A stretch of 64,000 nucleotides of DNA, taken from NCBI GenBank assembly GCA_025917655.1, contig CP084611.1, forward strand, positions 3,100,001-3,164,000. Direction: 5' to 3'. Source of the DNA: Chlorella sorokiniana. Its lineage: Eukaryota > Chlorophyta > Trebouxiophyceae > Chlorellales > Chlorellaceae. Shown here one piece after another: positions 1,321-64,000 of the stretch. A program made the position numbers and the translations under genes. Under the pieces are notes generated by a model. It saw nothing but the letters and a program-made list of their open reading frames with translations, made no database searches and was not told the origin of the DNA. Position 1 is the first letter of the stretch. Every line of letters starts with the position of its first letter.

Positions 1321-2140
1321 TCAATCAAACCACCGCTTCAATGCGGCACCTGGGCTGGCTGCGGCTCCCCCTCTCTTGGACCCAGCGGCGGCTGGCGCGT
1401 CAAATAGCTTGGCCAGGTACTGCGTGGCAAGCTTGTCAACGTTGTCCGTCGCCTCCTTCTTGCGCATCTTCCTAGACCGCACCTCGCCTGCACAGCATAC
1501 GGTGCACAGCTTCACTCCAGGCCTGCCTGGCTCCCAAACCAGGCAACACTGATGCACCACCATGTCAGGCAGCACCGGGTACATGCACAGCAAACAAGGC
1601 TCACCTGCAGGCTCAGCATCTGCCAGCTTATCTATCAACTCATCAGCTGAGCGCTTGCGCTGCCGGGCCTGCTGCTCATGCTGCAAGGCCGCCTGTGCCT
1701 TGGCCGCCCTGGTGTTCACACCAGGCTTGGCAGGCCGCTGCTGCTGCTTTGAGCCCGCGCCCTTGGCCAGCTGGGCTGGCTTGCTGGCGGACGCAGCTGG
1801 GGCCTTGCCTGCGGGCACTGCATGGGCGGGCCCTGCAGCAGCACCCGGCTGCCCCTCCAGCTTGCGCTTCCGCTGCTCCCTGCGCTTGGCAGCCCGGCTC
1901 TTCTCCCCTGCGTGGCTGCTCCAGTGGAGGCACCCACACCTTCGCCCTCCTCCAGGCTTTCCTGCTTGCGCCGCTCCTTCAGCATGAGGCGCCGCTCCTT
2001 TCTCAGTTGGCGCTTCGACTTGGGCGCGGGCGGCTCCTCGCCCTCGCTGTCGCCTCTGGCCTGCTGCCCCTGCATGGCGGTGGCACGCGCCCCTGCGGCG
2101 GCACTCCCTGCCGCACCGTCCGGCCCACCCGCCTCCTTGC

Positions 2141-2179
<39 letters not shown>

Positions 2180-5100
2180 GCTGCTTGGCAAGCTTGGCCT
2201 CCCGCAGCTTCAGCGCTTTGACGTTCTCCAGGGCAAACTCCACGATGGGGCGCTTGTCCTGCGGGGGACGTGGGGTGCCGCGGTTGGTGGCAAGGAGGGG
2301 GCGGGCATCCCTTGGCATGCAAGTTGCATGCACGCAACCCCAGCCTGCTGGACAGGAGCCTGCCTGCCCGGGCGCCCGCCAGTCCAGCTGCCGCACCTTG
2401 GTGAATGTGGAGGGGTTGTTGTTGAGCTGGCGAAGCGCGCACAGCGCATGTTCGTGATCCGTGAACTCGACAAAGCCGATGCCCTTGCTGCGTGGAACGC
2501 CGTCGGCGCCTGCCCGCTCCTCGTCGACCAGGATCTTGGCCTGACGCACCACGGGGCGGCCTGCCTGGCGCGCTCCTTGACCTGCGGGCACGAGGCAGGG
2601 CGGGCGGCGAATGCCAGGTTTGAGGGGACGGGAGGGTGCCCCGACCGGCACGCGGCTGGTCGGCTGTCGGGCCTGCCGCCATGCGGCCGGGCCGCACACA
2701 CTCACCGCAGCAATGAAGCAGGCCTTGAGCTGCTTCTCGGTCCAGGAGGGCGGGATGTTCCGCACGCTCAACCGGGTGTCGCTGACCACAAAGTTGGGGC
2801 TGCGCAGCTTCAGCTTCTTTTCCTCTGGGGTGGGGCAACAGCGGCGCAGGCAAACGCGTGACGCGCAACCTCCACCTGCGTGGCGCTGCCCAAGGCCCGG
2901 CTGCTGGGCGTGCGCGCTCCCGACCCACGCAGCTGGCCAGCAATGGCCGCCCCGCGCGCCCCTTCCTCTTCACCCCAGCCACTCCAGCCAACACACACCT
3001 GCCGCGCGTTTGCGCTTGGCCCTGTCCCCTGCCGCCATGTCCTCCCAGGCGGGAGACCCCTCAGCAATCTGGCCCTCCTTGGCCAGCGCCAGCGGCGGCT
3101 GTCCCGAGGCCCCCGCTCAGCAGCCTTTGCCGCCGCCAGCGCGCGCACGTCCTGCTGCCCCAGCGCCAAGTCCACCTCGGCCACACGCCCCGCTATGACA
3201 ACCCCAGGGCCCTGCTTCAGCCTGCACAAGGGGATGGCAGCGCAGCAGAGCCTGTGGAACCAGCAACTGTGTGTGCCCCACGCACGCTTTCCCAGTTCTC
3301 TCCGCCCCCTATGTGTGCAGCCCACTGCGCTTCTGGCCTGTGCAGCAGCACCCACCTGCCCTTGGCGCAAGCCTCTGCCGCCTTGTCCGCTGCCGCACGC
3401 GTGTAGTAGTCAACAAAGGCGGTGCCCTTGAGCTTGCCCGACGCCTTGTCCACCACCAGACGGCAGGAACGCACGGGGCCATAGGCCTACAAGGGAGGGC
3501 ATTTTAACGGCTGTAAGAACCAGCGGGCAACCCAAAGTGCGCAGTAGCCGCACAGCATGACCAGGCACACGAGGCCTCCCCCTCCCACACTCCACGCAAC
3601 CCCACCTTAGCATGCCCACCCACCCCACCTTCATCTTGGTGAAAACCTGCTCCTTGGTCACATCTAGCGGCAAGCTGCGGATGAACACGGTGGCGCCCTC
3701 CTCAGGGGTGCTCGCCCAGGCTGCTGCCCGCCCGGCACCCCGCCGCAGCCGCAGCACCAGCCTTTTCTTGCAGCTGCTTGCGGCTGAAGGGATCGGCGGC
3801 CGCAGCCTGCTGAGCCACACCCCTGGCCTTCCCGTCGCCCTCCTCTTCCTTGCTTCCCTCCTCGCCGTCTTCGCTGTCCAGATCGCTGTTAGCGCTGGCC
3901 TCCTCAGCGTCATCTGCTTCGCTATCCGAGAGCTCCGCTTCCTCATCTGACTCATCCGACACCCCCGCTCCGGCTGCCTCCTCCCCTCCCTCGTCAGCCT
4001 CCTCATCAGAACTCAGAATGCCGTCAATCACGCTGGCCAGCATGCGCCGCTCCTGCTCAGGCTCCACGGCGGTTGCAGCCCCTCCGTCTTCCTCCTCGTG
4101 CCCCTGTGTGGCAGCACAGGCAACGGGCACATCAGTTGTAGGCTGGCGCAGCGAAAGCACCACCCAATGTTGAGAGATGCTCAGACCATGCACAGCCAAC
4201 GGCATTCGTGCATGGTTGGTGCCATAATGGGGTGGGGTGGGGTCGCTCTGGGTGCGTGCCAGCTCACCAGCGTGGCCGGCGGGCCCGCCCCTCGTCATCC
4301 GAGTCGAGGCCCAGCGCCTCCGCAATCTCCTGCCGCCGCAGGCCAGCCAGCTTGTCGTCCAGGCTGGCTGGCGCCTCCTTCGCGCTCTCCCCGGCTGCGC
4401 CGCAGGCCCATACTGAGCCTTGCTCAGCGCCCAGTCCACCGCCACGGGCCGCCCCGCGATGGCTGTGCCGTTGACCAGCTGGATGGCGCGCTCGGCGTGC
4501 GTCCGGCAGGTGAAGCCCACAAACGCAAAGCCGCGGCCGCGGCCGCCAGTGCTGCGCGGCAGGGTCAACTCCCACACGAAGCCGGCGGGGGCAAACGCCT
4601 GCCGCACAAGATCTTCGCTTGTCTACAGCAGAACGGGGAGGGACAGAGGGTGGTGTCTGTTGTGTGCATGTGGTTGGGGATCAGGGGTCGCCTGCAATTA
4701 ATAAGCTGTCGGAGGGCGAAAGTGACAGACGAGCTCCTTCTCCCACATACAGGGCCGCACCCACACAGACCAGGGCCACGCCTACCGTGAACGGCAGGTT
4801 GCGCACAATCACGCGCCAGCGCTTGTGGTGCAGCCCATCCCCAGACAGCTGCCGCGCCCAGATGGGGCAGCCGGTGGCGGCGACGCTCTTGCCGCCCTTC
4901 TTGCCCCCTGCAAGCGGTCGCCGCCCGCGGTCTGTCCATGCAGTTTCGTCACGGCGTCGGTGGCCTGCTTCACCGTCTTGTACACCGCCAGGAAGGCCTC
5001 GCCGCTGCAGCCGTCCCGCTGCAGCATGTACTTGCTGGCCATGCCGTCGGGCACTGCCTCAATCACCTCCTCCACCTCCCCCGCTGCATGGGCCATCTGC

Positions 5101-6329: not shown

Positions 6330-9300
6330 ATGAAGCGGGGTGCGGAAGATGGCCCCGCTGAAGAGGGTCTGGCAAAGCGAGGGGCGGTTGAAGGTCTGGA
6401 GGTGAGAATGTAGAGTGCTGAAACGGACAATGCTGGTAGCGCCGGGCGCCGCGCCTGTGCACCTCTTTGCCGCCCGCCCGCTGCCACCGCCGTTCCGACT
6501 CGCACCCTGCGGCTTGCGCCCTGCCCACAGGGGGACCCGGCGGCGCCGGCAGCACATGATCAGGGCGATGATGAGCTGGATGACATGGGCATCCCTCAGG
6601 GCTGGCGCGAGTGTCCTGCTATGGGCCGCCTCGTGGAGCGCTTGATCCCCATGAAGGTCCCCCTCGCGCGCGCGCTTCGACAGCCACATCGCTGCTGAGC
6701 ACCGCTTCAACATAGACGATGCTGTGGCCATGGCGCGGCGTGCGGTCAAGTACGTGAAATTTGAGGCTGTTGTGCAGCCGGGGCCAGACGAGGCGGCAGG
6801 GCCTGGAGGCCAGCCGCCCGCGCCGCGTCGGGTGGAGCTGCCAGCGGAGGTGGCCCTGGTCATAGACCTGACCAACAGCTCACGCTACTACGACGCACAG
6901 CAGTGGATGCACCACGGAATACAGTACATCAAGGCAAGCTGCAACAACTGCAGCACGCGCTGGAGGCGCCCCCGCCGTGGCTTTCGCAGCGCTGATGAAC
7001 TGCGCGCCGCCGGTCTTCCCCCCGCACCTGCAGATCCCGTGCCGCGGCCGAGGGCAGCCTCCGCAGCCCGAGGCAGTGAACGACCTGTGCTGGGAGATTC
7101 GCTCCTACATGAACCGCTGCCCGCAGGGCGTGGCCCTCATCCACTGCACCCACGGCTTCAACCGCACCGGCTACATGGTGGCCTCGCTGCTGGCCCGCAG
7201 CTTGGGCTGGGTGATACCCAAGTGCCTGGATGTCTTCCGGAGGGCTCGTGAACCAGGCATCTACAAGCATTTCTACATCAGGTGGGCCACCGGCTTGCGA
7301 GTTTGCGGGGATACCGGCTTGCTGCGTGGGGTCTAGAGCAAGCCATGGAAGTGGGCAAGCAGCCTTACATGCTGGTGATAGTGGGGAGGGGAATGTTGTG
7401 TGGGGTCGACCTGCTGTTTGAGGCGTGTGCCTCAGCAGGAAGATGCACAGCGGTTTCATCGATGCTGTGGTTGTCTTGCCCTGCAGGGATCTGTTCCGGT
7501 ACTACCACGAGCGCCTGCCCAGAAACTTTCCCTTCCCCAGCCAGCCGCCCTGGAAGGCGGGGGACTCACCAGAGCACGAAGATGAGGTGGAGGAGGATGA
7601 CCCGCATGCGGAGCTACGCCACGACGACCCGCTTGGGGAGGGGGTGAGCTTGGGGAGGGGGTCAGGAGGGGCCCACTGGTGCAGCATAGCGGGGCGGAGC
7701 AGTGACCTGCGCAGCAAGGTCACTGGTGCTCATGGAGCAATCCCTTTCAACTCTGTGCGCCCGCTGCCCCTGCAGGTGGATATCCCCGAGGCGCAGGATG
7801 TGCAGCAGACCATCATGAACCTCATCCTGGGCTTTGACCCCTACCGCACCCGGGTGTGGCTGCCCGGCTCCCAGCCCGTCTCCTTGGACTCCACCAACCT
7901 GAAGCTGCTCAAGGAACTCAACTACTGGTGCGTGGAGGGGTGGTGGGGCTGCCCGCGCATTCTACGCATGCAGCCGTCCGTCTTGCGCTGCCACTATGTG
8001 CAGTCGATGATGTTGCAATCCTAGTGTTTGTCGCACTTGCTGCTTCCCTCCTGCCATGGACCGTCCTGAGCCAGTTCCTCTGACCTCAACCAGCCTGCCC
8101 TCCTGCCCCAGGGTGACCTGGAAGGCCGACGGCACGCGCTACATGCTGCTGCTCTGCCGCTACGGCACATACCTTGTGGACCGCAAGTTTGCCGTCACGC
8201 GCGTGCAAATGCGGTGGCCCACGCCGCGGGTGTCGGGCAGCACCTGAAAGGCCCTGTGGGGCCCTCACACCATTTGGTGAGCGTTGTTCGCTGCGTGCCC
8301 TCTTGCCAGCTGTTGGCCACGTTCCAACAGCAGCCAGCCCACCCTCGCAAACCCCGTTATATGACATCCACACTTAACCCCCCGCCCCCTCCCTTCCCTT
8401 CCCCCGGCTCTCCACTCTGCAGACGGTGCTGGATGGCGAGATGGTTGTGGACGAGGTGCTGCAGGAGGGTCGGTCGGAGCGCCGCTTCCTGGCCTACGAC
8501 ATCGCCGCCCTCAATGGGATGCCCCTGGTGGACAGGCCCTTCATGGTGGGTGCCATGCCCCGGAGGGGGAGGGGCGGGCTGCCGCGCGAACTGAACGGAA
8601 TGGTTGCGCTGCCGTCCTATGCTGTGCGGGAGCGCACATGCAGCACTTCACCCGCTCGTGCTGCTGCCGCTTGGCTGCTGCCGTGTGCAGGAGCGCTACA
8701 AGATGATCCAGAAGTGGGTGATCGAGCCGCGCAAGGTGGAGGAGGCCGCCATAGCCAAGGGAGAATGGACGTGCCAGTACCAGTATCACAAGGCAAGCGC
8801 CATAAGCCACTCTGTGAATCCGTGAGCCGCCACCCCTGGCACCCCACCTCACGCCGCATGCAGCTGCAATGACAGGGGGCCTCCTTCTTTGCCCTTCGTA
8901 CTGCTCAAGCCCCTCTTCGCCATGTTGTTTGGGACATGGCTGAGTTTCTCATTGACAAAGTGGGCGACTGGAGGCCAGATGGCAGTCCAGATGCAGGGCG
9001 TACGCGCCCCCAGCTGACGTGCAACACCCTCATTGTCTTGTGCCGCTCTCCTTCACCCGGTGCAGGAGGCATTCCGTGTGCGGCGCAAGGGCTTCTGGCC
9101 CCTGACCAAGACTGCGTCCCTGCTGCACGACTTCTCCAAACAGCTCACTCACGAGTCTGACGGCCTCATCTTCCAGCCGGCCATGGTGAGAGCCCCTCCC
9201 CACAGTCAGCCAAATTTGCCAGCTGCACTTGCGCTGCTTGCTTGCTTGCTTCTTCTGTCAGCTGGGGCAGGTTCTGCCTGCTGGGGAGCTGCTGCCCACG

Positions 9301-10126: not shown

Positions 10127-10512
10127 CGGCAGGATGCAGGGGACAGCAAACTGTGATGCACATGGCTTTGTGCACCCTGCATCGCAGTCTGTTTGAGGTG
10201 ATGCGTTCCCCCTTTGCGCACTCCTCCTGTGGGTTTGACTCAAGACCCTGAGATCTGTTCACAGCGGGTGGTCATGGTTACATTTAGAAGGTTGTCTTCA
10301 AGACGATAATTGCGGCGGCAGGGATGAAGAGCGTGGTGGCACAGCAGTGAAAACGCGCCGTCAGAGCTGGTCAATGCATGGAGCCTGTCCTAAACCTGGG
10401 GTGAATCTGTCTGGGTAGCAATCCAATGGTCATGTGGGTCTGCCTGCAGTAGTGTCTGCCTATGCGCCTGGCCCAGCGGCTGTACCGCCTCAGTACACCT
10501 GCAGCGCCAGAT

Positions 10513-13500
10513 TCATGCCTTGAGTAGGGCGAAGGCATACAGCATGCCCAGCAGCCAGACAGCCCACTTGAGTGCGGCTGGCGGCAGACACCCATCCCGC
10601 CCCCTTTCCTCCCCCAAACGCGCCAGGAGCAGGCCTGCACCCCCCTGCTCACGTCGTACGACATGTGCACCGTGGTGTCGTTGTCTGCCAGCAGCTTGTG
10701 GGCGCGGTCCGAGTGCTGGGGCAGGGCCAGGTCCTTGTTCTGCAGGTCGTTGCCCATGGAGCTGGTCAGCACCGTCTTGAAGAAGCCGTCCATGTGGGCC
10801 AGGGTGGCGGCCGCGCTCTGCCGCCCGCGCCACGCATCCTGGGGGAGGCGGGGGCGGCGTGTGTGTGGCATGCGGCAGGGTCGAGGCGAGGGGTTGGGCG
10901 ACGGCGTGCAGGGGCATCCTGCTGGCAGCTGCGTGTGGGGGCGCGAGGAGGTGCGCTCACCCGCTGCCCTCCGCGCCCCTCCCGCAGGTCCTCCGTGTAG
11001 TCCAGCACGTCCTTGGCGGTGAGGTCCCACAGGCCGCGCGTAAGCGCCACAAACACGCGGTTGTCCAGCACGTTGGACAGCCAGTGCAGCAGCTTCTCCA
11101 CCTCCTCCATGATGTGCATGAGCTGGGTGTGTGTGTGTGTGTGGGGGCGCGAGAAACAGAGCAGCTGAGCACGTCAGCTGGGCAGGCGAGGCTCCAGCCG
11201 CTCCAAGATCAAGATGGTGCAGGCAGCCCCTGCAAGCATGGCCGCCTGCGGCCCGCCCTCCCGCCCCCTGCCCCCTCACCGCCACAGACAGCTGCTGCGT
11301 GGTCGCAAAGACGCCGTTGCGGCGCAGCAGCTGCACCACGCTGGTGGCCTCCATCTTGGCCAGCTCCGCGCCAGGCGCTCCGCGCACAGCGTGATGGCGG
11401 CAAAGTACTCGGAGCGCAGCTCCTTCACCAGCTGGGCAAACTGGGCGCCCAGGTTGGGGGCGGAGCGGTGCTGGCGGCCGGCGGCGGCGCCGTCGGGGCG
11501 GAGGCCTGCGCGCCGCGCAGCCCCGCCGCCAGCGAGTCGGCCAGCGGCTCCGCGCACCAGCGCTTGAGCTCCTGCTCCATCTGGGGCGACACCTGGAGCA
11601 GGCGGCGCAGGCTGTTGAGCAGCAGCGCCTGGTTGGGGTTGATGCCCAGCTGCAGCACGATGGGGCGCCGCGGTAGGTGGCCGGCACTGCCGCGCGCTCC
11701 GCCACGCCCTGCGACACCCAGCGCCACGCCGCGCGCCCCCGCGCGCGCCGCCGCCTCGGCGCCGCTCCGCTGCTGCTGCGCGCCGTACGGCTGGATGGCC
11801 AGGGGCTCTGGGGACTGCCCGCCCTCCTGCAACAGGGCAAGGCCGGGACCGGCAGAGTGGTCGGCAGTCCCACCACTTCTTGCCACTGCGCTGAGCAGCC
11901 AGCCGTGCGACAGCAGCTGGTCCCCCTTCCCCCACAGCATGCGCATGCAAGTCCCCCAGGCGGCGGCACACCTTGATCTGCACCAGGCCGCACTGCCGTG
12001 ACACGCCCAGGGTGGCCTCGCGCAGCGCCCCGTCACCGCGCGCTCCAGGTCAGGGCCGTACATGGGCCAGTAGGTGATGATGCGCTGGTACCGCCCCATC
12101 TCGCTCTGTACCGCGTTCAACATGTCCTCAACCAGGTGGGCCACCTTGCTCTTGCCTGCAGGCAGGCAGGCGATGGGGAGAGGATGTGGGTGGGGCAGCC
12201 CGGCGGCCAGCCGTTGGCAAGGCATTCAAGCAACACAGCAGGGCAGGCAACAGGTCCAGCCCACCGCCCAGGCTGCGCATCCTGCTGCGGCCGCCCCACC
12301 GTCGGTTGCAAACTCCTGCCAGCCGTGCTGCCCCGCGCCCTGCTCCAGCCGGCGGCACCGCAGGCTCAGCTGCGCGGCGCTGCTGTTGATCCACTCCAGC
12401 ACAAAGCGGCCAAAGATGTCGCGGTTGTTCAGCCGGCTGTTGGCCTCGGCGTACTTGTGGCGGTGCTGCACAGGCGGGCGGGGCAGGGAGCGTCGGCCCA
12501 GGCTGCGTGACCACCTCCGCGGATGGGCAGGCAAGGGGTGGCTGGAGGCAAGGGCACAGACAGCGCGTGCCAGGTGCGGGCAGCCGGCGCGTGCTCCCAC
12601 CACAAAGTTCTGCAGCTTGCCCACTGCCTCCACCAGCCGGATGGCGGCCTCGGTGGGGGCGGGTGGCGGGTGGCGCCCCAGCACCTTGCGCAGGTGCTTG
12701 ATGATGCCCTGCGGGGGGGGGATGAGCGCGGCGGGCGGGTTTCTTCAGCCGCGGAGGCATGGCTGGCAGCGTTTGACCGCAGCTCACTTTGACAGCCATG
12801 CACCCTGCACACGCACGCGCGTCAGGTAGGCAAGAGAGGGGGTGTCATGCGGGGGCGGCCCCTCACGCTGACGTACTCCAGGGCCGTGGTGTCGGGCAGG
12901 TGCAGGAAGGCGGGCAGCACGCGAGCGTCCCGGATCTGGTCGTCCGCCCGCAGCTCGTTCATGATGGCGCGGCACAGCTCCTCCAGCCGCCCGTACGCCG
13001 CCACCGCCTCCGGGCTGTCCACCTGGCCCTGCCGCGCGTCGGTGGCGCGGCGCGGCGACGACGGGCGCTGCAGCTCCGCCGCCGTCAGCAGCGCCTGGTA
13101 GCGCTTGCGGGCGGCCACTCGGAAGCGCTCCTGCAGCCACTCCCGGTCGGCGGGGCTGGTGGCGTCGCGCACCAGTGCTGCAGGGGAGGGGCAGGTGATG
13201 GGTGCGTGCAAGGGGCGGGCGGGGGCATCGCCGGAAGCAGGCTGCATGAAGTACGCGAGGGGGCCGTTTCCACATTGAGGAGGCGGCTGCACGCCTGCCC
13301 ACTCACCAAACAGGTGCACCGCTGGGCGCATGACCGCGGGTATGCCCGACCGCACCGCCAGCGCGCCGTCCATCATGCCGCTGGCCGTGTCCTCGCTCAG
13401 CATGAAGTAGTTTTCAAACGCGGTGTGCAGCAGCTCCTCGATGCGGGCAGACACCTGCGCCTGCACGCCCAGCTCCCCCGACGACAGCCCCTCCACCTGC

Positions 13501-16500
13501 GCCGCCTGCTGCAGCGCCACCATGTCGCGCAGCAGCACGTCGAAGCAGTCGGCGGTGAGGGTCGCGTTCTCGGGCGCACCACCCACTTGAGGTAGGACAG
13601 GCGCGCGTAGTTGCGCCCCACCGCGTACGCCCGCGCAAAGCGCCCCAGCAGCCAGACCCAGGGGCCGTGCAGGGCGAGGTTGCGGGGGCCGCACCCCACC
13701 GCCCTCAGCGCCGCCTCCAGCACCTCGTCGTACACCTGCAGGCTGCTGACCTGGGGGGGGGGAAACAGAAGGGCGGGCAGGGGCCGGCTGGGGGGAGCGG
13801 GCCGCAGGCTGCCGCAGAGCCGGGCTGCAGAGCAGCAGGCAGCCGACACGCCGCGCGTGCATCCGCAGCAGGCCGCCCTGACTTGCCTGCAGGTAGCCGC
13901 CCGTGGCGGTGGCGGGCGCCTTGCCGCCGGTGCCCGGCGTCAGGCCGGACGTGGTGGGGAAGGCGGGGACGGGCGGCACCGGGAGGCCATGGGCGGCAGC
14001 ATGGCCAGCGGTGGGGCCATGGCCGGGGGACACCGGCTCCTGCTCGACGCTCGGGCGTAGGTGTCCTCCGACGGTGCGGCAGCGTAGCCGCCGCGCTGGC
14101 GGGAGTCCCGCGAGGGCGGCCCCATCAGGCCCTGCACACCGCCAGCGGGGAGCGGCAGCGGCTCATACGCGAGGTGTGTGCAGGAGGCGTGCAGGGGGAG
14201 CAGGGCAGCACGCTGCTGCCATCCCTGCTGGCTGCAGGCGCTTGCGTGTCCCCACCCGCCCACCCACCGCGGCGTGCAGCAGGGCCATGCTGACGCGGGC
14301 GGAGAGCACGGCGTGGCCCGCCACCCGCCCCTCGTCGTCCACCAGCTTCACCCACGCCATGGAGCCGCCGCTGGCGGAGGAGCCGCCCTTGCGCAGGCAG
14401 GGGAAGATGGACTTGAGGAAGCCGGGGGAGGGGCCCGCGTCAAACAGGGCGTCCCCCTGGTTGGCAATCTGCGGTGTGTGTGCCATTCGGGGAGGTAGAC
14501 GCGGCGGTGGTGGTGAGGGAGAGGGGTGGCGTGCAGGGTGAGGCAGGGCAGACTCCACTGTCAACGTGGTCGGCGGCGTTGGGGCCAGCTTCTGTGTGAG
14601 CCGCTACCGTGCGCGCCCGGGCCCCAGACCCCCCCCAGGGCCCACCTTGTGCAGCTCCGCCACTTGCACCGTGCCCAGCGCCACCCCCGCCCATCCACAC
14701 GCAGCTCCGCGGTGAACGTCTGCTGCTGCCCCGAGTCGCTGGGCAGGCGCACCACCTCCTGGTCGTGCGCGTTGCCGTCGCTGCCAATCTTGGTGTGGGC
14801 GCAGCCGTCGGCGGCTGGGAGGGAAAGGGCAGACGGACAAGGGGGCGGGAAGAGAGTGAGGGGCGTGGCAAAGCCTACGTAAGCCTGTGGCAGCCCGGGG
14901 AGCCCAGAGGCGTGGCTGAGCGGTGTGGCCATGCTGGGAGGCGCCAGCTGCCTGCGTGCCCCACCTGGCCGGCTGCCTGCGTAGGTGACCACGGCAAAGT
15001 CCCTGCCCGTGATGCCGTTGGTCAGCAGCTCGCACCCCACCACGCGCATGACCGTCACCTCCAGCGCAGGCCCGCTCGCTGCCCGCCCGCCCCCTGAGCC
15101 CCCGCTGCCGCCGCTGACGCGGGCCAGCGCCTCGCCGCCCTGCCGCAGGGACAGCTGCGCAACGTCGCGCTCCATCCGGCGCTGCTCCTGCTGCCGCCGG
15201 CGCTCAAGCTCGCGCTGTTGCTCCTCCATCTCACGCTGCTGCTTGGCATACAGCTGCTGCTGCGCGGCCTCGCCGGCGCTGGGGCCCCCAGGCCCCGGCT
15301 GCAGGGGGACCTCGCCCGCCAGCGACACATCCTCGCGGTCGTCCCTGCAGGGGGCCATGGCAGAGGGGTTGGGAGCGCTGAGGGACGGGGTGGTAGTGAT
15401 GGGGGGTTGGGGGGGATGCAGCCAGGGGCCCATCGCTTGCAACAGCTGCCAGGCATAGCATTGGTTGGTTGTGCAACAGCACCAAGATAGAGACCCCTTG
15501 GTGTCTGCCCCTCGCGCCCAGCTATCCAGCCAGCATGCACACCAGATGCAGTGCATGCCGTCCTGCGTGTAGAGGCTGGGGTCAGCGGCGTGCTGCACCA
15601 GGAACAGCTGCTCCAGGCCCAGTGCCTTCTTCAGCGTGCTGCAGCCGTTGGCGAGGAAAGCGGTGGCCGTGTCCTCGCCGCCTCCCAGCAGCTCATCGAG
15701 GCACAGCTGCCAGCAGCCCTGCAAGCCAGACCACCAGAGCGGTGACACGCCTCCAGTGCAGCCTCACAGCCTGGGAGCCAGCAGGCACGCCTGCGGCAAT
15801 CCCACTCAGCCCCGTCCCCACCTCATAAGCCAGGTACTTGAGGTAGGCCTGGCGCTTGCCCAGCTTGAAGGCAGCGCCTGGCTTCTTGTCCAGCGCACGC
15901 TTGCCGCCGTGGGACACGCCGCTGGCGCGGTGGCGGTTGGCACTGCCGGGCGTGGTGTGCACAGCGGGGATGTTCCAGTGTTGCTGCTGCTGCCGGGGCT
16001 GCTGCCGAGGCGGGGGAGCCAGCCCGTCCTCTTCCTGCTGCACGTCGCCCATGTTAGGGACGCCATCCTTGTCAAGCTGGGCCTGCATCTGGTAGGTGAC
16101 GGGATCGGAGGGCGCCGCCCCCACGCCAAACCCGCCAAGCCCGCCGCTCAAGCCGTCACCGCCTGCCCCAAACAGCCGAGCCGCAGGCGCGCCACCTCGG
16201 AAGCTGCCTGGCCCAGCAGCATTATGTGTTGAAAGCCCTTCCTGCTGCTGCATCGCCGGCTGATTGCCGTCGGGGCACTAGTGTTGAAGAGGCTCTGCAG
16301 GTGCCCCATGCGACCGCTGGTGTTCAGCCCCTGCTGCGACAAGCGGCCTGCTCGAGCGCCTGGTGCCTGGCGGGCGAGAGGCTGGTCCTCAGCATCCAGG
16401 AATTGCGAGGCACCCGGAGGCAGTGGTGACTTGGATGGCGAAGATGCGCGACTGCTGGCGTCTTCTTCTTCTATAGCGCCATTGATCTGCAACCCAGCAG

Positions 16501-24543: not shown

Positions 24544-24737
24544 GGCGAGAAAGGCTACAACACGGATCGATGGTTCCCTCTCAAGTACCCAAGAGCAGAG
24601 GGTAAGATGGTGCTCAGCACGCAGCAGGAGAAGAACAAAACCCCCTGTCTCAAGTGGCGTTTCTGCTGCAGCATACGATCACAGATGATGCTTCTGCCGC
24701 GATGTGGGCTTCGTCGCTGCGCCGGGGGCTCTCCCAT

Positions 24738-25593: not shown

Positions 25594-25631
<38 letters not shown>

Positions 25632-52400: not shown

Positions 52401-54839
52401 TTCCGCTCGCAGCTGCCCAAGGACACTCAGCTCAGCCTCTTCCCCGCGCTCATCAAGTGAGCGGGCTGGGGGCCGGCGGCGAGGCGGCGCTGACTGAAGG
52501 AGCTGTGCCCCGCTGTGCGGCCCTGGGAACGCAATCGCATCCATGCCCCCCGCCCCACCCACCCGCAGCCTGCTGGGCAGCCAGTCCAACGTGGTGCACA
52601 GCTACGCCGCCATCGCCATAGACCGGCTGCTGGCCATGCGGGAGCCGGGGGCGCAGCCCAGCGCGCCGCGCTTCCAGCCGGGCGAGCTGGCCCCCGTGCT
52701 GCAGCCGCTGCTGGAGAAGCTGTTTGCCGCCTTCAAGCTGCCCGAGTCGGGGAGAACGAGTACGTGATGCGGGCGGTGATGCGCGTCATAGCCTTTGTCG
52801 GTGAGGCGGGGGAGAGGGGAGGGGAAAGGAGAGGAGGGAAAGAGGGGGCGGCGGGGGATGAGGGCGTTGGAAACTTCTTGTTTCCATCACTCCTAGGCAG
52901 GTAGTGCTGTGTGGGGCCGCAAGCACCGACCCAACACACCGCATGGGCCCAACCGCTGCCCCCCCCCCCCACACACACATACACCTGCCCCCACCCCGCA
53001 GGCAAGACGATAGCCCCCGTGGCGCCTGCCTGCCTGCAGCAGCTCTCAGCGCAGCTGCTGGTGGTGTGCAAGAACCCCACGCAGCCCGGCTTCAACCACT
53101 ACCTCTTCGAGTCGGTGGCGGCCCTGGTCAGGTGCGGCGCTGGCACCCCAGCCTGCGTGCGCCCAGACCCCTCCCCGATGAGGCGCCCGCGCCCCCACCA
53201 CTCTCGTGCCCACCTGCTGGCGCTGCCCCCACCCCCGCCCCACCCCACACATGCTCAGGTACGGGTGTGAGGCGGACCCGGGCGCTGTGGGGCAGTACGA
53301 GGCGCAGCTGTTCCCGCCCTTCCAGGTGGTGCTGAGCGAGGATGTGCAGGAGTTCCACCCGTGAGCCGCGGGGGCGCGGGCCGGGGGCGAGGGCGAGCTT
53401 CATGACCTGCAGCAGCTGTGGGCGTGTTCCTGTGCCAACTGGACGGGCTCCTGCAACCTGGCAGGCCCCTTCCACCCCCACCCTACCCCGTCCCCCTCCC
53501 TGTACCCTCCCGGTGCCGCAGCTACGTGTTCCAGATTTTTGCGCAGCTGCTGGAGGTGCGCCCCCGGCTCCCCCTGCCCGAGGCCTACCACGCCATCTTC
53601 CCCCCTGCTCACCCCCACCTTCTGGGAGCGGCCAGGCAACGTGCCCGCCCTGGTGCGCCTGCTGCAAGCCTACATGGAGCGCGCCGGCAGCGAGGTCGTC
53701 AGCCGCGGGTGCCTGCAGGTGGGCGGAGGGGGTGCGGGTGCAGGGGGTTGCTGGGCCGCGCAGCCTTCAGCAGCCACGTGTTGGCAGGCCTGCACGCAGG
53801 TTCTCTCCCCCGGCTGCAAGGTGCGCTCCCTCCCCACCCTCCGAGGCCGCAGGCGGTGCTGGGCGTGTTCCAGAAGCTGGTGGCCAGCCGCGCCCACGAC
53901 CACGAGGGCTTCCGCATCCTGGCCACCCTGGTCAGCCAGCTCGACTACGCGGGGTGCATGGCGCAGGCAAGGGGGGCTGCCGCGCGCCGTGCACCGACGC
54001 CGGGGTGGGCTGGGCGGCAGGGCCTGAGCGGCAGCTCTGGCGAGGTGCACGGTCAACAGGAATGTTGAGACGACGTCGCCCCCACCCCCCTCCCCCCCCC
54101 CGCCCGCAGTTCATGCCGACCATCTGGCAGCTGCTGTTCAGCCGTCTGCAGTCGTCGCGCACCGCCAAGTTCACGCGCTCCCTGCTCCTCTTCCTGTCCC
54201 TCTTTGTGTGCAAGCGCGGCGCGCAGCTGGTGGCGGACAGCATCGACGGCGTGCAGCCCGGCCTGACGCTCATGCTGCTGCAGACGGTGTGGCTGCCCAC
54301 GCTGCCCACCATCAGCGGGGGGCACGAAGAGAAGCTGGTGGCAGTGGCCACAGCTCGCCTGCTCAGCGGCACCAAGCAGCTGGCGGCCCCCGAGGCGGCG
54401 GAGCTGGTGGGGCGCCTGCTGGCTGCGCTGGTCGGCAGCTTGGAGGGCGGGGCTGCGTCGGGCGGCGAGGAGGGCGGGGACGACGGCGGCGCGGACGAGG
54501 AGTTTGCGGCGGGCGGCTACTCTGCGGCCTACGCGCGCCTGCACAACGCGCACCGGTGAGGCGGAGGGCGGGCTGCTGGCCTGGGCTTGTTGGCTGTGCT
54601 CCCTGCCTCCCCCTGTGCCAATGCTCCCTCGACACCCTGCCCCGCTCCTTGACCCCAGGCCCGAACGGGACCCACTGCCCGAGGTGGCGGACGCCAAGCT
54701 GGAGCTGGCTGCGGCGCTGGGCAAGCTGGCGGCGGGGCAGCCAGGGCGCGTGCCGCAGCTGGTGCAGGCTGCACTGTCGCCTGAGCAGCAGCAGAAGGTG
54801 GCGGCGTACTGCGCTGCGGCAGGGGTCGCCATCGCGTGA
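49481..54839 (+). CDS. CSE1: Exportin-2 (CSE1/CAS), importin-alpha re-export receptor
   Basis: HEAT-repeat karyopherin that returns importin-alpha to the cytoplasm with RanGTP. It starts [20 protein letters not shown], then [40 protein letters not shown] (importin-beta N-terminal repeat), [20 protein letters not shown] (a typical CSE1 block), [20 protein letters not shown] (CSE1-specific: DxEGSDxDTRRR), [75 protein letters not shown] and [19 protein letters not shown]. It ends CAAAGVAIA. About a dozen introns, many short and GC-rich. Three frame slips: near 52264-52265, at GGGG 52749-52752, and two bases at the C run 53600-53605. It converges on HIRA 183 bases away. Confidence 0.93.
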
Positions 54840-55022: not shown

Positions 55023-58000
55023 TCAGGGCGAGAGACGCGATGAGCACAGCTGGGCCCGGCCCGGCCAACAAGGCTGCTGCTGCGACTCACGACGGCGCCG
55101 GGGCGCCGCTGCACCATCCTGGGCCGCCTGTGCTGCTGCTGCTGAAGCGAGCGGCACTGGCGCGGTCGCCTGCGCTGCTGCCGCAGCAACGGTGGGCGCT
55201 GGCGCCGCCGCTGGCGCCTGTGCGCGCTGCAGGTCGGCGAGGGCGTCGTTGTACGTCTGCGTGGTGCGCTGCAGGGCGCGGTTGCGGCTCATCTCGCGCA
55301 GCACCTCCTGCAGCAGCGCCCGTTTGTCCAGCCCCAGCACGCACGGCTGCCAGGCCGAGCCGGGTCCCCCCGCCGCCGCCTGCCCCGCTGCGCTGCCGTC
55401 CGCGTCCGCCATGCGCGCGTCGCCGTCGCCGTCGCCGTCCCACGCCTGCGCTGCGCTGCCCACGGGCCCCAGCAGCGCGGCGCACACCTCCGCCAGGCGC
55501 CCCGCGTCGGCCTGCTCCGCCAGGAAGCGCGCGTAGGCGGCCAGCCAGCGCCGGTACTCCCGGCCGAGCACAGGGCCAGGGCCGCGGCCAGCGAGGCCTC
55601 CAGGTGGGCGCGCGTCAGGCCGGGCGCCGCCGCCGCACCGCGCACTTGAAGGCCGGGCAGCGCGGCGCGGGGCACGGCGGCCCGCAGCACCTCCGCCTGC
55701 AGGGCGCTCACCTCGCCTGAGGGGGAGAAGGGGGGATGGGGGCTTGTTGTCAGAGGGCACCCTGCCTCTCACCGCCCGGCCCCCCTTGCCTCACGCGCAG
55801 CCAGCAGCAGACGAGCTGCAACATCAGCGGGCTGGCCCCTCCTGGCGGTCCGGCAGCCCACCCTGTCCGGGCAGGCTGAGCAGGGGTGTGAAGTGCGAGG
55901 CGGCCAGCGAGTCGTCGGCCACGCAGGCCCAGCCCTGCAGGTCGTGGCACCAGGCGTAGGCGCGGCAGCTGGACAGGGTGACCAGCGGCACGCCCTGCCG
56001 CGACAGGCGGGCGTCCAACACTGCGATGGAGGGGGAGGGGAGGGGGCCGGGCTCAGCGGCCTGGAGGCACCGGCAGGCAGGCGCAGGAGCGCAGGTTGCG
56101 CTTGAACGGGCACGGGTTGCAGTAGGTGCAGCACAGGTGCCGCCCGCCCACCTGTGCAGCCGTCCTCCAGCAGCGGCGCCAGCGAGGCGGCCAGCAGGGA
56201 GCGGGGACCCTCCACGTCAAACACGCGCACCATGCCGGCGGTGGTCAGGGCCAGCAGGCGCCAGGCGGCGCCGCAAGCCAGGGCTGCAATGCCGGCGCCC
56301 AGCTTCAGGGGCGCCCACAGGTGGCGCCCAGCCGCAGAGTAGAGCTGCGTGGGGGGTGCCGGGGGTGCCGGGCACACAGCGCTGGCAGCTGTCAGTGCGC
56401 ATGCGGGGGAGGCCGGGCGGCGAGGGGCGGCCTTGGCAGCATGAGATGCAGGGGCAGAGCAGCCATCCGCCCCCCCCCCACACACACACCCCACACACAG
56501 GGAATGACACCTCACACATGCCAGCCTCCAGGCACGGCCACCCACCACGAGCTGCCCATCCGCCAGCCCCACCGCCGCAAAGTTGGGGGTGCCGCAGGCC
56601 GCCACCGCCGCCCCCTGCAGGCTGTCGCTCCACACCACCTCCCGGCCCTGCAGGCAGGCCACCTCAGCCTGCTGCCGCGCCCGCCCGCCGCCGCCGCTGC
56701 CGCCCCAGCCCACTCGCGGTTGGTGACGCGCAAGTGTCGGTGCGGGACAGAGGCGCCAGAGGTGGCCGGGTCCTCAAACAGGCGGGGGCGGGACCCAGGT
56801 CAGCCGTCACCTCGGCAGGCACGTCGCCCCTGCGCAGCAACACCGGCGGCTGCGCAACTCCCGCGACCCCAGCGCTGGCGCCGCCGGCGACGGCGGAGGT
56901 GGTTGGAGCGCCGCGGCCTGAGGCAGCCGCTGCGCGCCCGCTGCCTGCTGCTGGCGGCCCCGCCTCTGGGCGCTGCCGCTTGGCCTCCTGCTGCTGCCCG
57001 CCCGGCGGCCGCACCGCGGCGGCGGCGGCGGCATGAGGTCGGCGGAGGAGGGGCGAGCAGCTGCGGTGGGCGCTGCCGCCGGTGCGGGGGTGCGCCCAGG
57101 GGCTCGGGTGCGATGCGCTTGCGCCCTGCACGGTCAGCAGGCGCCGGGGCATCAAAGCCCTCCTGCACCTCTCCTCCGCCCATGCGCCCGCTCAGCCGAG
57201 CGCTGAGCGCATCCATGGCGTGCTGGGTCGAGGGCTGCGCCGCCCGCTCCAAGGCTACCTGCTGCGCCGCCGCCACGGGGGGGCGCTCCCGACACCGGCG
57301 CCCCCTGCTGGGGCGCTGCCGCCGGCGTGAGCGCTGCGGCAGCGGCCGGGGCACGGGCAGGCGACCCCGCCTTTGCCGCCGCCGCCTCCAGCGCCAGCTG
57401 GTCCGCGCTCTCTGCAAACAGGCGCTTGCCGTGCGCCCCCTGCGCGCTGCCGTACAGCTGTTGGAAGATGGCCTCCAGCTCTTCTCGGCTGTGCGCCCGG
57501 CCCAGCTCGGCGGGGGAGAACTGGAAGCTGGCCACGGTGCCTGCGGGGCGGGTGGGGGCGGCGACAAGCGGGCAGGCGGCTGGGCTGGGGGCGGAGGCTG
57601 GGTGGGTGGGTGGGGTGGGTGGGGGGCGCGTGTGTTGCCGCGGGCACCGGCCAGGCTGGCACGGGCGCGGGCGGGCGGCTGCGTGTGCGGCGCACCGTCG
57701 CTGGATGCCGCCAGCGCGGTGTAGCCATCGGGGACCAGGCCAGGTCGGTGACTTGGTTGCGGAAGAGGCGCTTGCCCACCAGCAGCGGGGTGGGCTGCGC
57801 GGCGGCCCACACTGCGGTTGTCAAGGGGTGGGTGGTATGGCAGCGGGCCAGCGGTTTAGAGGGCGTGACCTTGCATTCGCACGCAAAGGGCAGCGGATGG
57901 GCTGAGGGTCGCGCGCGTGCCTCCCTGCCCGCCCCACCCCCGCCCCACCCGACACGCGCTTGTCCTGTGCTCCCAGCATGAAGACGCAGCTCAGGCGCGA

Positions 58001-59979
58001 GTCCACCTCCCCCGCCCCCCGCCGCCCTTCTTGGGCAGGTGGAAGAGGCGGGGGTTGAAGGCCACGCTAACCACGCAACCTGGGGGTGGTAGAGGGGGAG
58101 GTGGGGAGTTAGGGTCAAGCATGATGGAGAGGGCGGGGGTCAGGGTCAACAATGAATGAATGGCGGGGGCCAGGGTGTGCGTATGTGTGTGGGGAGCGGG
58201 AGTGGGTGGGGTGGGGTGTGGGGCCCAGCCGCGCTCACCCTGGTGCCCGCTGACCAGCATGTGCTCCCTGTCCTCGTTCCAGCGGCCCCGCTGGATGACC
58301 ACCGCGGCGTGGGAGGCGCCCTGGTAGCTGTTGCCTGCAGGGGCGCCAGCCAGCCACAGGCCTGATGTGGCACACGCACTGCCGCCTGCCGCCGGGTGGG
58401 GCTGACCTGCATGCAGGGACGCCTCCTGCCCCCCCAACACACGCACCCTCCCCCGCATGCCGTCCTCTCCCCCCACCGCACCCGTGGCCAGGAACGAGCC
58501 GTCTGGGCTCCAGCTGAGGCGCGTGGAGAATGTGGAGGTGACCATCTTGGCGTAGGGCGCCCGCACCGCGGCCACCACGCTCCAGTCGTCGCACCGCCAG
58601 ATCACCACGCTCTTGTCCTCCGCCTGAGGGTTCAACGCAGGGCTGCCAGCATGGGCTGCCAGCCCCCACACGAGAGGCACGACCGGCGCGAGGGCCTGCC
58701 CATGCAAGCACGCCGCAATGCGCAGGGCTGCCTTGCGCTGCTGGGCCCCCGCCGCCTGCCCCGCTTGCGCGCCTCGCTGTTCCCCTGCAGGCCGCCGCCG
58801 CCGCCCACCTGCGTGGCCAGGTAGGTCCCCACCGGGTCCCAGGCCAGCCCCTTGACAAAGGAGGTGTGGTAGTCGAGGGTGTGCAGGCGCTGCCCGCTGG
58901 ACGCGTCCCAGATGCACACCGCGTTGTCGAGGGAGGCGGAGGCGAGGCGGGAGTCGTCGGGGGACCAGCCCAGGTCCACCACGTTGTTGGCGTGGCCCCG
59001 CAGCACCAGCCGCGTGCGCCAGTTCTCAACGCTGGCGCCGCCGCCGCCCAGCGTGGCGCCGCCGGGCCCTGGGCGGTGCTCATAGATGCAGATCATGCGG
59101 TCGTCCGCGCCTGCGGGCAAATGCCGCATGCTTGGCAGGGCCAGATGGCGGATGCCAGTGCAGGCGTTCTGAGGCGGTCACTAGGAATGCAGCCATCAGA
59201 GCAAAGCCAGATGGGTGCACACGTTGCACCCATCTGCGTGCACAGTGCACATGCGCGCGGCACTGCACAGTGGCGCAAGCCAACGGCCCCGTTTGCTCCC
59301 CACACGCTCCCGCCAGCAGCCCACCCCGCGGCGGCGCACCCGAGGCCAGGTGTTTGCCGTTGTTGCTGAAGCGCACGGCGTTGACGGTGGAGGCGTGGTC
59401 GCTCAAGGTGGCCAGCAGCAGCTGGCCGCCCTTCTCCCGCTGCGCATCCATCACCGCCGACATGCCCCACACCTTCACCAGCGAGTCCGCGCCCCCGTGG
59501 CGAAGCGCAGCCCCGTGGCCTGCACATGGACAGTGTACACGCCGCCTGCAGGGCGGACGACGGCAGCACGCACGTCGGCCAAACGGTGTTGCGTTTGGGA
59601 ACAAACGGATCCTGCTGCGCATGGGAGCCTGCTGCATGCGAGCTGCCACAGGAGTGATGGCCATGACTGAAGCATGCAAGCCATGGGCAAGGCTGTATTG
59701 GACACAATGTTCCCAGGACTGTGCAGCGGTCAAACAGTCCTGACAACCACCGTGCGGCAGCTAAACCGCCGGCAGTGGAACATGATAAGCGCAACAGCGA
59801 CTTTGTTGGTGCCTTCCCCCGTTGCAAATAGCTTCCAGGCTGCCTGTGGCGGACCAACAGGCCTGTAGCTCCCGGCGGCGCCAAAGTATTCATCGCCGAA
59901 TCTGATCACGTGTCGTGTTCAGGGCAAACTTGTGCTGTCTCACCTTCATGGCTGCACCAGGGTATTTTTCGATCAACAT
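55023..59979 (-). CDS. HIRA: HIRA-like histone chaperone (WD40 plus B/Hira domains)
   Basis: HIRA deposits histone H3.3 outside replication. N-terminal WD repeats: GVYTVHVQATGLRFATG, SLVKVWGMSAVM, STVNAVRFSNNGKHLASG, MICIYEHRPGPGG, GHANNVVDLGWSPDDSRLAS, AVCIWDASSGQRLHTLD, SFVKGLAWDPVGTYLATQ, VVIWRCDDWSVVAAVRAP, TRLSWSPDGSFLATG, VSVAFNPRLFHLP and VTDLAWSPMATP. The C-terminal Hira domain has TVASFQFSPAELG, LWAPLKLGAGIAALACG, LLALTTAGMVRVFDVEG, RAYAWCHDLQGWACVADDSL and EYRRWLAAYARFLAEQADAG. The last exon ends about 55023 in an A/P-rich tail. The first exon is tentative: 59979-59944 reads MLIEKYPGAAMK before a GTGAGA donor, recalling MIAEKP of HIRA, but its join to GVYTV is unproven. Frame slips at CCCCC 59492-59496 and near 55562-55565. 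Confidence 0.85.
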
Positions 59980-60432: not shown

Positions 60433-62339
60433 TCAGACCGCGGCGGGCTCGAGGCTGCTGTACTTGAGCTTCTTTGACAGGTCAAACATGAAGGCCACGT
60501 TGTCCTCGGGCGTGCCCACCAGCACGCCGTGGCCCAGGTTCAGCACGTGGCCGCGCCCCCGCCTTGGCCAGGCAGTCACGCACCGCGTCCTCAATGGCCG
60601 CCTGGGAGCCAAACAGTACCACCGGGTCCACGTTGCCCTGCAGCCGCGGGGGAGAGGGGGTGGGGACGTCGGCAAGTTGTCAGCCCGCATTGCAGGAGGC
60701 GCAGCGCCGTAAGCTGTGCACCCCACTTCAGGCTGGACGCCGACGCAGCACCCCAGAATGGCTGCTTACCTGCACTGACACATCAGCGCCGAGGCGGCGG
60801 CGCGCGTCGGCCATGTCCACGGTCCAGTCCAGCCCGATGACGTCGGCGCCCGTGCCCGCCATGCGCTCCAGCATGCCGCCGCTGCCGTTGGCATACAGCG
60901 TGAGCGGCGTGCGCGGGTGGCTGGCCTTCACCTGCCGCACAATGCGCTCGATGTAAGGGCGGGACCAGCGGTCCCACTGCTTGGGCGGTAGCTGGCCGCC
61001 CCACGAGTCGAACATCATGATGCAGTCGGCGCCGCTGTCAATCTGGTACTGCACGTACACCGCAATCTGGTCTGCAATGTGGCTCAGCAAGCCATCCAGC
61101 AGCTGGGGCTCTGCGAATGAATGGGACGCCATGCCGTGGGGCACACTGTTGGCAAGGCACAGGAAGGTCGGGCAGCGCCAGCACCACTTCTCTGAGGCGC
61201 CCAGGCACAGGCAGAGGGCGGTGTGAGGGGCAGCCAAGCTGCGGCGGGCCAGTCCCCTCCCTGCACCCACCGTTGAACATCATGGTCTTGATGTTCTTGT
61301 AGATGGAGGAGGAGGCGCCCTCCACCACGTACGTGGCCAGGGTCCAGGGGCAGCCCACGAAGCCCAGCACAGCGGCGCGCCCCGCCACCTCCTGACGGAT
61401 GAGCCCCAGCGACTCGCCCACAAACGACAGCTGCTGCAGGTCGATGGCGTGCAGCTGCTTCAGCTGCTCCATGCTACGGATGGGGAGTCCAGCAGCGGTC
61501 CCTTGTTGTCGTCAATCTCAAAGGGGATGCCAAAGGCCGGCAGCGGGGTGAGGATGTCGCTGCAGCAAGGGAAGGGAGGGAAGGCATGCGTGCACACGGG
61601 TTAGACGCCGTCTCGCATTGCGCGCACTTCCAAGCTGCAGGGGCGCAACATCGCCGCCGGTTCGGCCTGCGTTACCCACCTGAAAATGATCACGCCATCC
61701 GGCTTGAAGGAGTTCCAGGGCTGCAGGCTGATCTCCACAATCAGGTCAGTGTTCTCAGAGCGCTCGCGAAAGGACGGGTGCTTGAGCGCCAGATCGCGGT
61801 ACACCTTTTGGTACCTGCCCGCCTGCCGCATCATCCTGCACGTATGGGCAGAGCCAACAGCTCGGAGCAGTGTTGGCACACTGCTCCTAGGCGGCGCATT
61901 CCCCATCCACGCTGTGAGAACCGTGCCGTGGTGCGTCAGGGCGAAGGGAAGCAGGAAGCAGCTGATACTTTCACACCTAAGAGCGTGCCACAGATTGATT
62001 TGTACGTTGGCTGCAAACAATGAAGCAGAACAGGGCAGCAACCAACCCAACCAAGACTGCCACAACTCACCAGCACGGTGCACGCCGACCGCCTCGCCGC
62101 GAGCAGCACGCACCATTAGAGGCTCTGCGGCAACCACAGCAGCAAAGTCGGCTCTAGGCCATGATTCAGGATGCACGGGGTGAGAGGTGCGTCTCGCACC
62201 CAGCCGTCCTACCTTCCTGAGCCGCTTGGCACACGACTGCTAGCCGAGCATTCCTGGCACGTACATTGCTCCCTGATGACCGTATGCTTGATGCAGCGCC
62301 ATTGTAGGCGCTCCGCAGGCTGGCCACGCTCGCCGACAT
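60433..62339 (-). CDS. UROD: Uroporphyrinogen decarboxylase, plastid-type
   Basis: Removes four acetate carboxyls from uroporphyrinogen III to give coproporphyrinogen III in heme and chlorophyll synthesis. ATG at 62337-62339 opens [20 protein letters not shown], a plastid-transit-like N terminus. Family blocks in order: [20 protein letters not shown] (catalytic MRQAGR), [123 protein letters not shown] and [19 protein letters not shown]. It ends [11 protein letters not shown]. The first core Arg region and the GLDW and GHVLNLGHG substrate-site residues are intact. A two-base loss is likely in the C run 60556-60560, just before GHVLNLGHG. It diverges from the choline-transporter-like gene. Confidence 0.95.
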
Positions 62340-62702
62340 TGCCTGCCCAGTGCTGTGGGGCGTTCCAGTTGTCTTGAAGCGCAGCAACTAACAGTGTGCC
62401 GTTCCCACAATGCTATGAATGCACGAGAAGCACGCCATCTTGACACCCTCATCTCCTGCTGTGCTGTGACTGCCCCTAGCGCGCCAAGTCCCGCTCGGGC
62501 GGCCCTGACTTACGTGCCGTTACCTAAGCTTTGCACGTTCGCCTCAAAAGTTGGTCTCTCTGTGCAGCCTGCGACGTTCATTCTTCGGTTCTCTGTCGCG
62601 TGTTCTCGACTCGCCGGCCTCCTCATTAGCAAGTGCAGTGCCTCCCAGGAGCCAGCAATTGGCACCTGGTGACCAGCAAGCAGAGGTACCAAGCGAATCG
62701 AC
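62340..62702. promoter_or_regulatory. Divergent intergenic region, UROD (-) / choline transporter-like (+)
   Basis: 363 bases between two starts, presumably both promoters. No distinctive element seen. Confidence 0.4.
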
Positions 62703-64000
62703 ATGGGCAAAGACTGGCGTGACCCGCCCACTCCGCCCCTGGGCGGGGTGCCGCACTTCCAATACAGCCGTGTCCCCCGTGACCGCCTTTGGGCGGTGTT
62801 GTTTGCGCTGGTGTGGGTGGGAGCCATAGCTGGCGGCATTTATGCCATCAAGAACAGGTGGGAGCCGCTCTGCGGTGGCTTGGAGGTTGCTGGCACCTTT
62901 GCTCCCCACCTCGCGTGAGCCCTGCATCTGCGTGTGCCCCCCGCCACTGTGATGCAGGAGTCCCGCCTTTCTGCACACTGATTTCACGGACCCCGCCAGC
63001 TGCCCGCTGACGCCCAACGAGGCACACCGGAGGCTGCTGGAGGACCTGGCCGCCAAGCACAAGGGCGACTTCAGCTTCTCACAGTTCATGCACTTCACGG
63101 GGCGCTGGCTGGCGGTGTCGGCGGCGCTGGCACTGGGCCTGGGCGTGGCCTTCATCCACCTGTTCAAGCACCACTCGGCGGTGATGACGCGCGTGACGAT
63201 CGGGCGCAGGTGGCGGTGAGTGCTCGCTGCGCCCTGGAACCAGTTGCGGGTGCTGGCTAGCTGGGAGGGACACTTCTGAATTCCCCACCTACCCCGGCGG
63301 CTGTTCCACACCACCCTCCCGCCGTCCTGCAGTTCCCGGCCACCATGGCGCTGGCATGCCTGCTGACGGGGCAGGCTGTTGGGGCGCTGACGTTTGGCTG
63401 CCTCGCCGCGCTGGCGGCCTTCGTGTTCTACCTGTGGCGCGGCCAGATCGAACTGGCCACCCGCCTGCTGGGCGTGTCGGCGCACGGCCTGGCGGCCAAC
63501 TCCGCCATCATTCCCGCCACCATCCTGCTGAACCTGGCCTCCCTGCTGGCCATCTCGCCGCTCTGCGCATTCCTCGGCTTTGCCTACATGAACGGCGAGG
63601 TGGTGCCCAACCCGGCACGGGCGGGGCCGCCGAGTGCGTCAACAGCCAGGGCGACAAGGTCCTCTGCTGCAGCTGGCAGCCCAACGCCTTTGGACAGGGA
63701 TATATGAGTGAGCGGCTGACTGTGACTGTCGCTAGTTGCCGTGCCGGCTGGCCAAGCATGCTGCCACGGCAGGCAGCAAGCTCTGCATGCCAGCCGGCGA
63801 CCCCCCCCTTGTGTACCTATCCTCGCAGGCGCTTGCGCAATCACTATCCTCTGGACCATGCTGCTGGCCAACCAGGTCCGCGTGTTTGTGACGTCGGGGG
63901 CGGTGGCTCAGTGGTACTTTGCGCCGCCGGGCGCGCTGAGCGTGCCGCGCGGCACGACCTGGGCCAGCTTCCGCCACGCGCTGGGCCCCTCCTTTGGCTC
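62703..64000 (+). CDS. Choline transporter-like (SLC44/CTL, Pns1) membrane protein, 3' truncated by window
   Basis: CTL proteins are about ten-span membrane proteins; some carry choline, others have unknown cargo. It starts MGKDWRDPPTPPLGGVPHFQ, a hydrophilic head, then the first membrane helix AVLFALVWVGAIAGGIYAI. Exon 2 (from about 62958) has FTDPASCPLTPNEAHRRLL and FTGRWLAVSAALALGLGVAF. Exon 3 has FPATMALACLLTGQAVGALT, AAFVFYLWRGQIELATRLLG and ATILLNLASLLAISPLCAFL. The last exon has ILWTMLLANQVRVFVTSGAV followed by AQWYFAPP and the family block SFRHALGPSFGS, where the window ends. VTSGAVAQWYF and RHALGPSFGS are the best SLC44 signatures. One G appears missing at 63202-63204 and another at 63623-63626. 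Confidence 0.85.

Follow-up and report, generated by a model that had tools for sequence, protein, structure and literature searches.

Broken reading frames in nuclear and organellar contigs of a Chlorella sorokiniana assembly as probable uncorrected consensus errors of long-read sequencing

Why should conserved genes of a living alga change reading frame again and again within a single stretch of chromosome? The question is raised by a window of 64,000 nucleotides from Chlorella sorokiniana (assembly GCA_025917655.1, 38.8 Mb in 15 contigs), which spans positions 3,100,001 to 3,164,000 of contig CP084611.1 (C1, 5,253,104 bases) and for which a preliminary description had listed 21 sites where a protein appears to continue in a neighbouring frame, with consensus error as the proposed cause. 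Our analysis supports this cause through a sharp drop in run lengths, a dependence of frame changes on run length, a clean control and broken genes in both organelles. We conclude that the breaks almost certainly reflect consensus errors left uncorrected in a long-read assembly, most likely one of nanopore reads without adequate short-read polishing, and that the phenomenon is a known, ordinary artefact and not a real biological feature.

Every one of the 21 sites was inspected in three frames. A Pfam scan in three read-through frames of the strand judged to be coding covered most of the window, and several genes were also matched against solved structures. The two frames at a break were then set side by side with an X at the junction, and a single match was required to span the break; in the five confirmed cases where the joined Pfam score was also set against the upstream half, the downstream half or both scored separately, joining brought a clear gain every time. 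A family match runs across the break at ten of the 21 sites, located in RNF113A, CSE1 (three sites), HIRA (two sites), uroporphyrinogen decarboxylase (UROD), SWI3, a PALP dehydratase and the mRNA capping enzyme, while two further sites are weak, six plausible and three unsupported. The sequence of the window does contain broken frames; site by site, the preliminary list is about half confirmed, and it is right in kind.

Three of the ten breaks are evident even without joining. At CSE1 position 52264 (plus strand), a one-base frame change in CG-rich sequence that holds no run, the Cse1 profile is matched at 244-289 and 290-353 by abutting segments in two frames (244-351 with 112.9 bits when joined), and yeast Cse1 (PDB 1wa5_C) is matched at residues 394-438 and 441-501 in two frames with five bases and two residues between them. 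At the run of five in UROD (60556..60560, minus strand), two overlapping frames match tobacco UROD (PDB 1j93_A), one at 291-321 and the other at 318-353, and the joined fragment matches the URO-D profile at 285-342. In the threonine-dehydratase-type PALP gene (39874..39876, plus strand), a one-base change leaves profile positions 4-41 and 51-183 in two frames, separated by 29 bases and nine profile positions, and the joined match is continuous from 5 to 105.

At the other confirmed sites the break shows in the joined match. Two more lie in CSE1 on the plus strand: a one-base change at a run of four G (52749..52752), where CAS_CSE1 1-56 scores 53.4 bits joined against 16.8 bits for 1-40 in the upstream half, the only half scored, and a change at a run of six C (53600..53605), where CAS_CSE1 136-194 reaches 79.3 bits joined and its halves 25.4 (136-162) and 37.8 (164-194). 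In HIRA, on the minus strand, a one-base change adjoins a short G run in the C-terminal part (55562..55565; Hira profile 172-217, 40.9 bits joined, with no match for the upstream half and 24.5 bits for the downstream half) and is also spanned by a match to PDB 5yje_A 272-317; a second one-base change falls at a run of five in the propeller (59492..59496), where the confirmation is moderate (CAF1B/HIR1 propeller 31-88 with 35.8 bits joined versus 41-88 with 27.3 bits for the downstream half, the only one scored). The SWI3/SMARCC-type gene (37241, plus strand) changes frame by one base after a run of five A, just ahead of an intron that was omitted on joining; SWIRM-assoc_1 is matched there at 2-51 with 52.0 bits, compared to 2-35 with 36.7 bits for the upstream half, which alone was scored. 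RNF113A (21371..21375, plus strand) changes by one base at a run of five G directly after its CCCH finger, and the joined fragment matches RNF113A 157-234 in PDB 5z56_M and CWC24 125-175 in PDB 5gm6_a over the site. Finally, in the phosphatase domain of the mRNA capping enzyme (6666..6675, plus strand) the frame changes within a CG dinucleotide tract; a joined match of modest score to PDB 1i9s_A 6-46 spans the site.

Seven of these ten sites are one base short, and the remaining three (6666, 53600 and 60556) are two short or have one extra. Most of them sit at G/C runs. Among all 21 listed sites, ten have a G/C run of at least four within 8 bases, whereas a position drawn at random from the window has one in 16% of cases (p about 7e-4, a value that must be read knowing that the earlier reader may have put sites onto runs).

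We therefore turned to the runs themselves, in a nuclear sample of 254 kb that comprises the window and 19 stretches of 10 kb, has a guanine-plus-cytosine (GC) content of about 65% and carries numerous introns. Controls were picked by GC content from 80 fetched loci, of which 10 were at 58% or above and 14 at 44% or below; the high-GC control consists of 161 kb of cyanobacterial loci. The nuclear sample holds 2023, 949 and 109 G/C runs of four, five and six, so that the ratio from one length to the next falls from 0.47 to 0.11, compared to 1398, 457 and 108 runs (ratios 0.33 and 0.24) in the control. The drop from five to six holds under each label given to the sequence, with ratios of 0.10 in coding, 0.15 in intergenic and 0.14 in intron stretches. 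In the organelles it is the A/T runs that fall away, with a ratio from seven to eight of 0.19 in the mitochondrion (preceding step 0.66) and of 0.20 in the chloroplast (preceding step 0.51), the latter from a count into which about 2.5 kb entered twice (48 to 9 without the duplicate). A/T runs also thin out in the low-GC control, to 0.20 from six to seven, which makes the A/T result less clean, and because that control too weakens with length we put the weight on the nuclear result. Runs thus accumulate at one particular length and fall off sharply beyond it, as in homopolymer error of the nanopore type, and G/C runs are affected at a shorter length (five) than A/T runs (seven), although the two thresholds come from different compartments because long A/T runs are few in the nuclear sample.

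If runs are miscounted, frames should break there preferentially, and they do. The labels used above come from our own decoder, which allows introns and uses a codon model trained on nine family-verified seeds and then without supervision. We compared the frames across each G/C run with flanks of 75 bases, requiring confident coding on one strand on both sides; of the 949 runs of five, 103 were kept and the others dropped. The frame changes at 14 to 15% of runs of one (1276/8417), two (446/3162) and three (102/700), at 44 of 186 runs of four, at 41 of 103 runs of five and at 6 of 10 runs of six. Since neighbouring positions are not independent, we permuted within blocks of 2 kb, and the 47 changes observed at 113 runs of at least five compare to 22.0 expected (standard deviation 3.8, maximum 36 in 2000 permutations). 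The high-GC control changes frame at 1 of 207 runs of five, 0 of 50 runs of six, 11 of 669 runs of four and about 0.9% of short runs. With longer flanks the baseline rises to about 25% (105 bases) and about 40% (150 bases) and the runs of five to 48% and 59%, so that the contrast is smaller yet persists.

In a ranking of 40 strand-merged words of four bases by frame change, CCCC/GGGG comes first with 33%, compared to a mean of 17%. Directly below the G/C runs stand CGCG (25%) and GCGC (22%), a possible second error context in the nuclear sample. As the lengths of dinucleotide tracts displayed no clear drop, the case for this CG/GC context is made by the phase ranking together with the capping enzyme site at 6666.

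The window is not exceptional in any of this. Leaving it out of the nuclear sample, the frame still changes at 27 of 73 G/C runs of five. For nine of the 21 listed sites, the decoder, which makes no use of homology, breaks the frame no more than about 30 bases away (at 6668, for example, in the capping enzyme). It called 64 frame changes in the 64 kb of the window and another 210 in 190 kb taken from other places on ten contigs, which is about one per kb in both. Many single calls are uncertain, as stricter penalties lowered the window count to 44 and 16. In the window, deletions outnumber insertions by 37 to 27, or by 12 to 4 once the penalty is made stricter; outside it the figures are 115 to 95.

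The breaks also extend beyond this chromosome and beyond the nucleus. On another nuclear chromosome (C3:1270819-1271083), an HSP70 gene changes frame with its two matches overlapping by 5 bases. Contig C14 (77,013 bases, GC 34% in its first 10 kb) is mitochondrial, bearing cox1 and cob, and contig C15 (117,793 bases) is the chloroplast contig, bearing psaA, psaB and psbB-, psbC- and petB-type genes, where the names of organelle genes within a family are those that we take the family matches to indicate. The mitochondrial cox1 is spread over three frames, and the switches fall at five consecutive T and five consecutive A. Overlapping matches mark two frame changes in one nad-type gene and a single one in another, and they do so for two frame changes in chloroplast psbB, which has an intron-sized gap besides. 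A near full-length nad-type match (Proton_antipo_M; C14:21407-22264, minus strand) bears one in-frame TAG, which is either an error or real. Nuclear and organellar DNA are thus both affected and, by the decoder's labels, coding and noncoding sequence alike. Since the respiratory chain and photosystem II each have a core component broken in the same way as nuclear genes, technical error is by far the most economical explanation.

These observations bear directly on the idea that the alga recodes its messages on a wide scale, by programmed ribosomal frameshifting or otherwise, which we regard as exceedingly unlikely. It would fit the conservation of the frames that flank each confirmed break, and the run-like sequence common to many breaks, but both classes of frame change occur, in mixed contexts (G, C, A and T runs, a CG tract and no run at all), and nucleus, mitochondrion and chloroplast are all hit despite their separate ribosomes. 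Moreover, the drop in run length reaches into intron- and intergenic-labelled stretches and is thus not confined to translated sequence.

Tiny introns or real mutations, with the affected genes as pseudogenes, are just as unlikely. Ordinary introns are plentiful in this genome and some lie close to listed sites (63202 and 37241). At CSE1 52264, UROD 60556 and PALP 39874, however, the frames overlap or stand 5 to 29 bases apart, in agreement with the number of residues between them, and overlapping or nearly abutting frames recur in cox1, nad, psbB and HSP70, which leaves no room for an intron at the breaks seen without joining. Neither splice signals nor a removable stretch were found at the breaks examined for them, namely CSE1 52264 and UROD 60556 among the 21 sites, together with cox1, nad, psbB and HSP70. 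Pseudogenes, in turn, would require the simultaneous death of many essential-type genes across three genomes.

In the consensus error that we favour instead, the basecaller would under-count G/C runs beyond about five and A/T runs beyond about seven, sometimes shorter ones, and would also slip in CG/GC dinucleotide tracts, so that one or two bases would be lost and coding frames broken. The underlying genes would then be intact, and reads would be expected to restore their frames.

As to the platform, nanopore sequencing is the likely source. In a published nanopore error profile (PMC8486125), homopolymers are reliable to a length of about 5 (4 at high GC), C/G runs fare more poorly than A/T runs, the errors are mostly deletions and short repeats are likewise error-prone; the alga's assembly is alike in the limiting run size, in the poorer state of C/G and in the short-repeat effect, with the difference that the profile sets reads against references and our signature is taken from the assembly without one. 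Another long-read platform, such as PacBio continuous long reads, or a fault in polishing could also be responsible, given that an under-polished long-read consensus generally yields single-base losses and many broken frames. Yet the sharp drop at a fixed size (five for G/C, seven for A/T), with G/C worse than A/T, fits the nanopore profile (PMC8486125), and the homopolymer concern is stated, in a report on Drechmeria coniospora, not to apply to PacBio-only fungal genomes (PMC7500977), which makes this alternative improbable.

That report offers the closest parallel to a nanopore consensus in the alga (PMC7500977): in nanopore-only assemblies of this fungus, fewer than one sixth of 305 conserved genes initially had their full length, chiefly owing to homopolymer errors, and the damage was mended by short reads. 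Both are eukaryotic assemblies at chromosome level in which the frames of conserved genes are broken prior to short-read polishing. They differ in that runs in the fungus were more often over-long after long-read polishing and look mostly too short in the alga, and in that organelle genes are shown to be broken as well in the alga. Kastor (PMC12007338) finds long-read frameshifts of the same kind by comparison with known genes and was built for small genomes.

Several observations weigh against the explanation by consensus error. The two breaks in cox1 involve A/T runs of five, shorter than the drop at seven to eight, and a number of organelle matches have no break, namely the psaA, psaB, psbC-type, petB-type and cob domains and a stretch of rpoB. 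The baseline of about 15% in the phase test includes introns and nearby breaks, unlike the intron-free bacterial control, and that control itself rises slightly at runs of four, from its 0.9% to the 11 of 669 given above. The decoder calls are just mildly biased towards deletions. Some breaks, finally, lie outside runs, with CSE1 52264 as an example among the confirmed sites. We judge it very unlikely that a minority of the breaks, for instance those that lie in CG-rich surroundings without a run, reflect genuine indels or recoding in the alga itself.

The eleven other listed sites are less secure. In the VPS55 gene (45585..45587, minus strand) a frame change lies beside a CG-rich stretch, and the Vps55 profile is matched at 4-39 with 42.5 bits joined versus 10-39 with 39.9 bits for the downstream half; in a CTL-type choline transporter (63623..63626, plus strand) an apparent one-base change falls at a run of four G, and Choline_transpo is matched at 3-95 with 34.4 bits joined versus 3-75 with 30.4 bits for the upstream half, with no match for the downstream half. 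Both are graded weak because joining adds only 2.6 and 4.0 bits.

At the six plausible sites an open frame passes into another open frame by an apparent one-base change, with no family match over the break. The first lies at a run of four in the tail of an RBM28/Nop4-like gene (1905..1908, minus strand), where the frames were read by eye, the decoder breaks at 1926 and RRM domains lie elsewhere in the gene. Three others, also on the minus strand, combine frames with a decoder call: 11367..11372 (decoder break at 11369), in a gene that the preliminary description labelled Munc13-like; 13576 (decoder 13577), in a gene without a Pfam match; and 22457..22461 (decoder break at 22451), at a run of five in a gene labelled as a Rossmann repeat. 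Neither of these two labels was upheld, as no Pfam match was obtained for either gene. The remaining two, on the plus strand, rest on frames: 20750..20751, in the low-complexity N-terminal part of RNF113A, and 42399..42403, at a run of five G in a gene labelled claspin, with no convincing family match at the site.

Among the unsupported sites, 16272..16275 (minus strand) has no clear continuation in either frame, with the nearest decoder break at 16184; 25506..25508 (plus strand) offers only low-complexity frames; and 63202..63204 (plus strand) requires no frameshift, since the frame remains open into a GTGAGT donor. Genes that had been described as intact fared unevenly as well: SCO1 is indeed matched in one frame only and part of DNAJC9 lies in one frame, two cytochrome-b5-reductase-type domains in one frame are perhaps the gene meant by CBR1, and HSP20 yields weak matches in three frames, separated by intron-sized gaps.

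For users of this assembly, the finding serves as a quality flag: split gene models and seemingly premature stop codons are to be expected, and apparent pseudogenes, tiny introns and losses of conserved genes are not credible without reads. The drop in run length together with the codon-phase test provides a quick, reference-free detector of such assemblies.

Elsewhere in the window, long coding-like stretches at 10301-16300 and 22201-27100 (minus strand) gave no Pfam match frame by frame, and Rfam gave no match at the gathering score. A PAP_fibrillin match (48356-49032, minus strand) shifts frame between profile positions 91 and 110 over 113 bases (48784 to 48670), through either an intron or a frameshift; it was not on the preliminary list and is left out of the counts. 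Lastly, a match to a DGAT2-type acyltransferase (DAGAT, PF03982; 29385-30430, minus strand) extends over three frames with intron-sized gaps.

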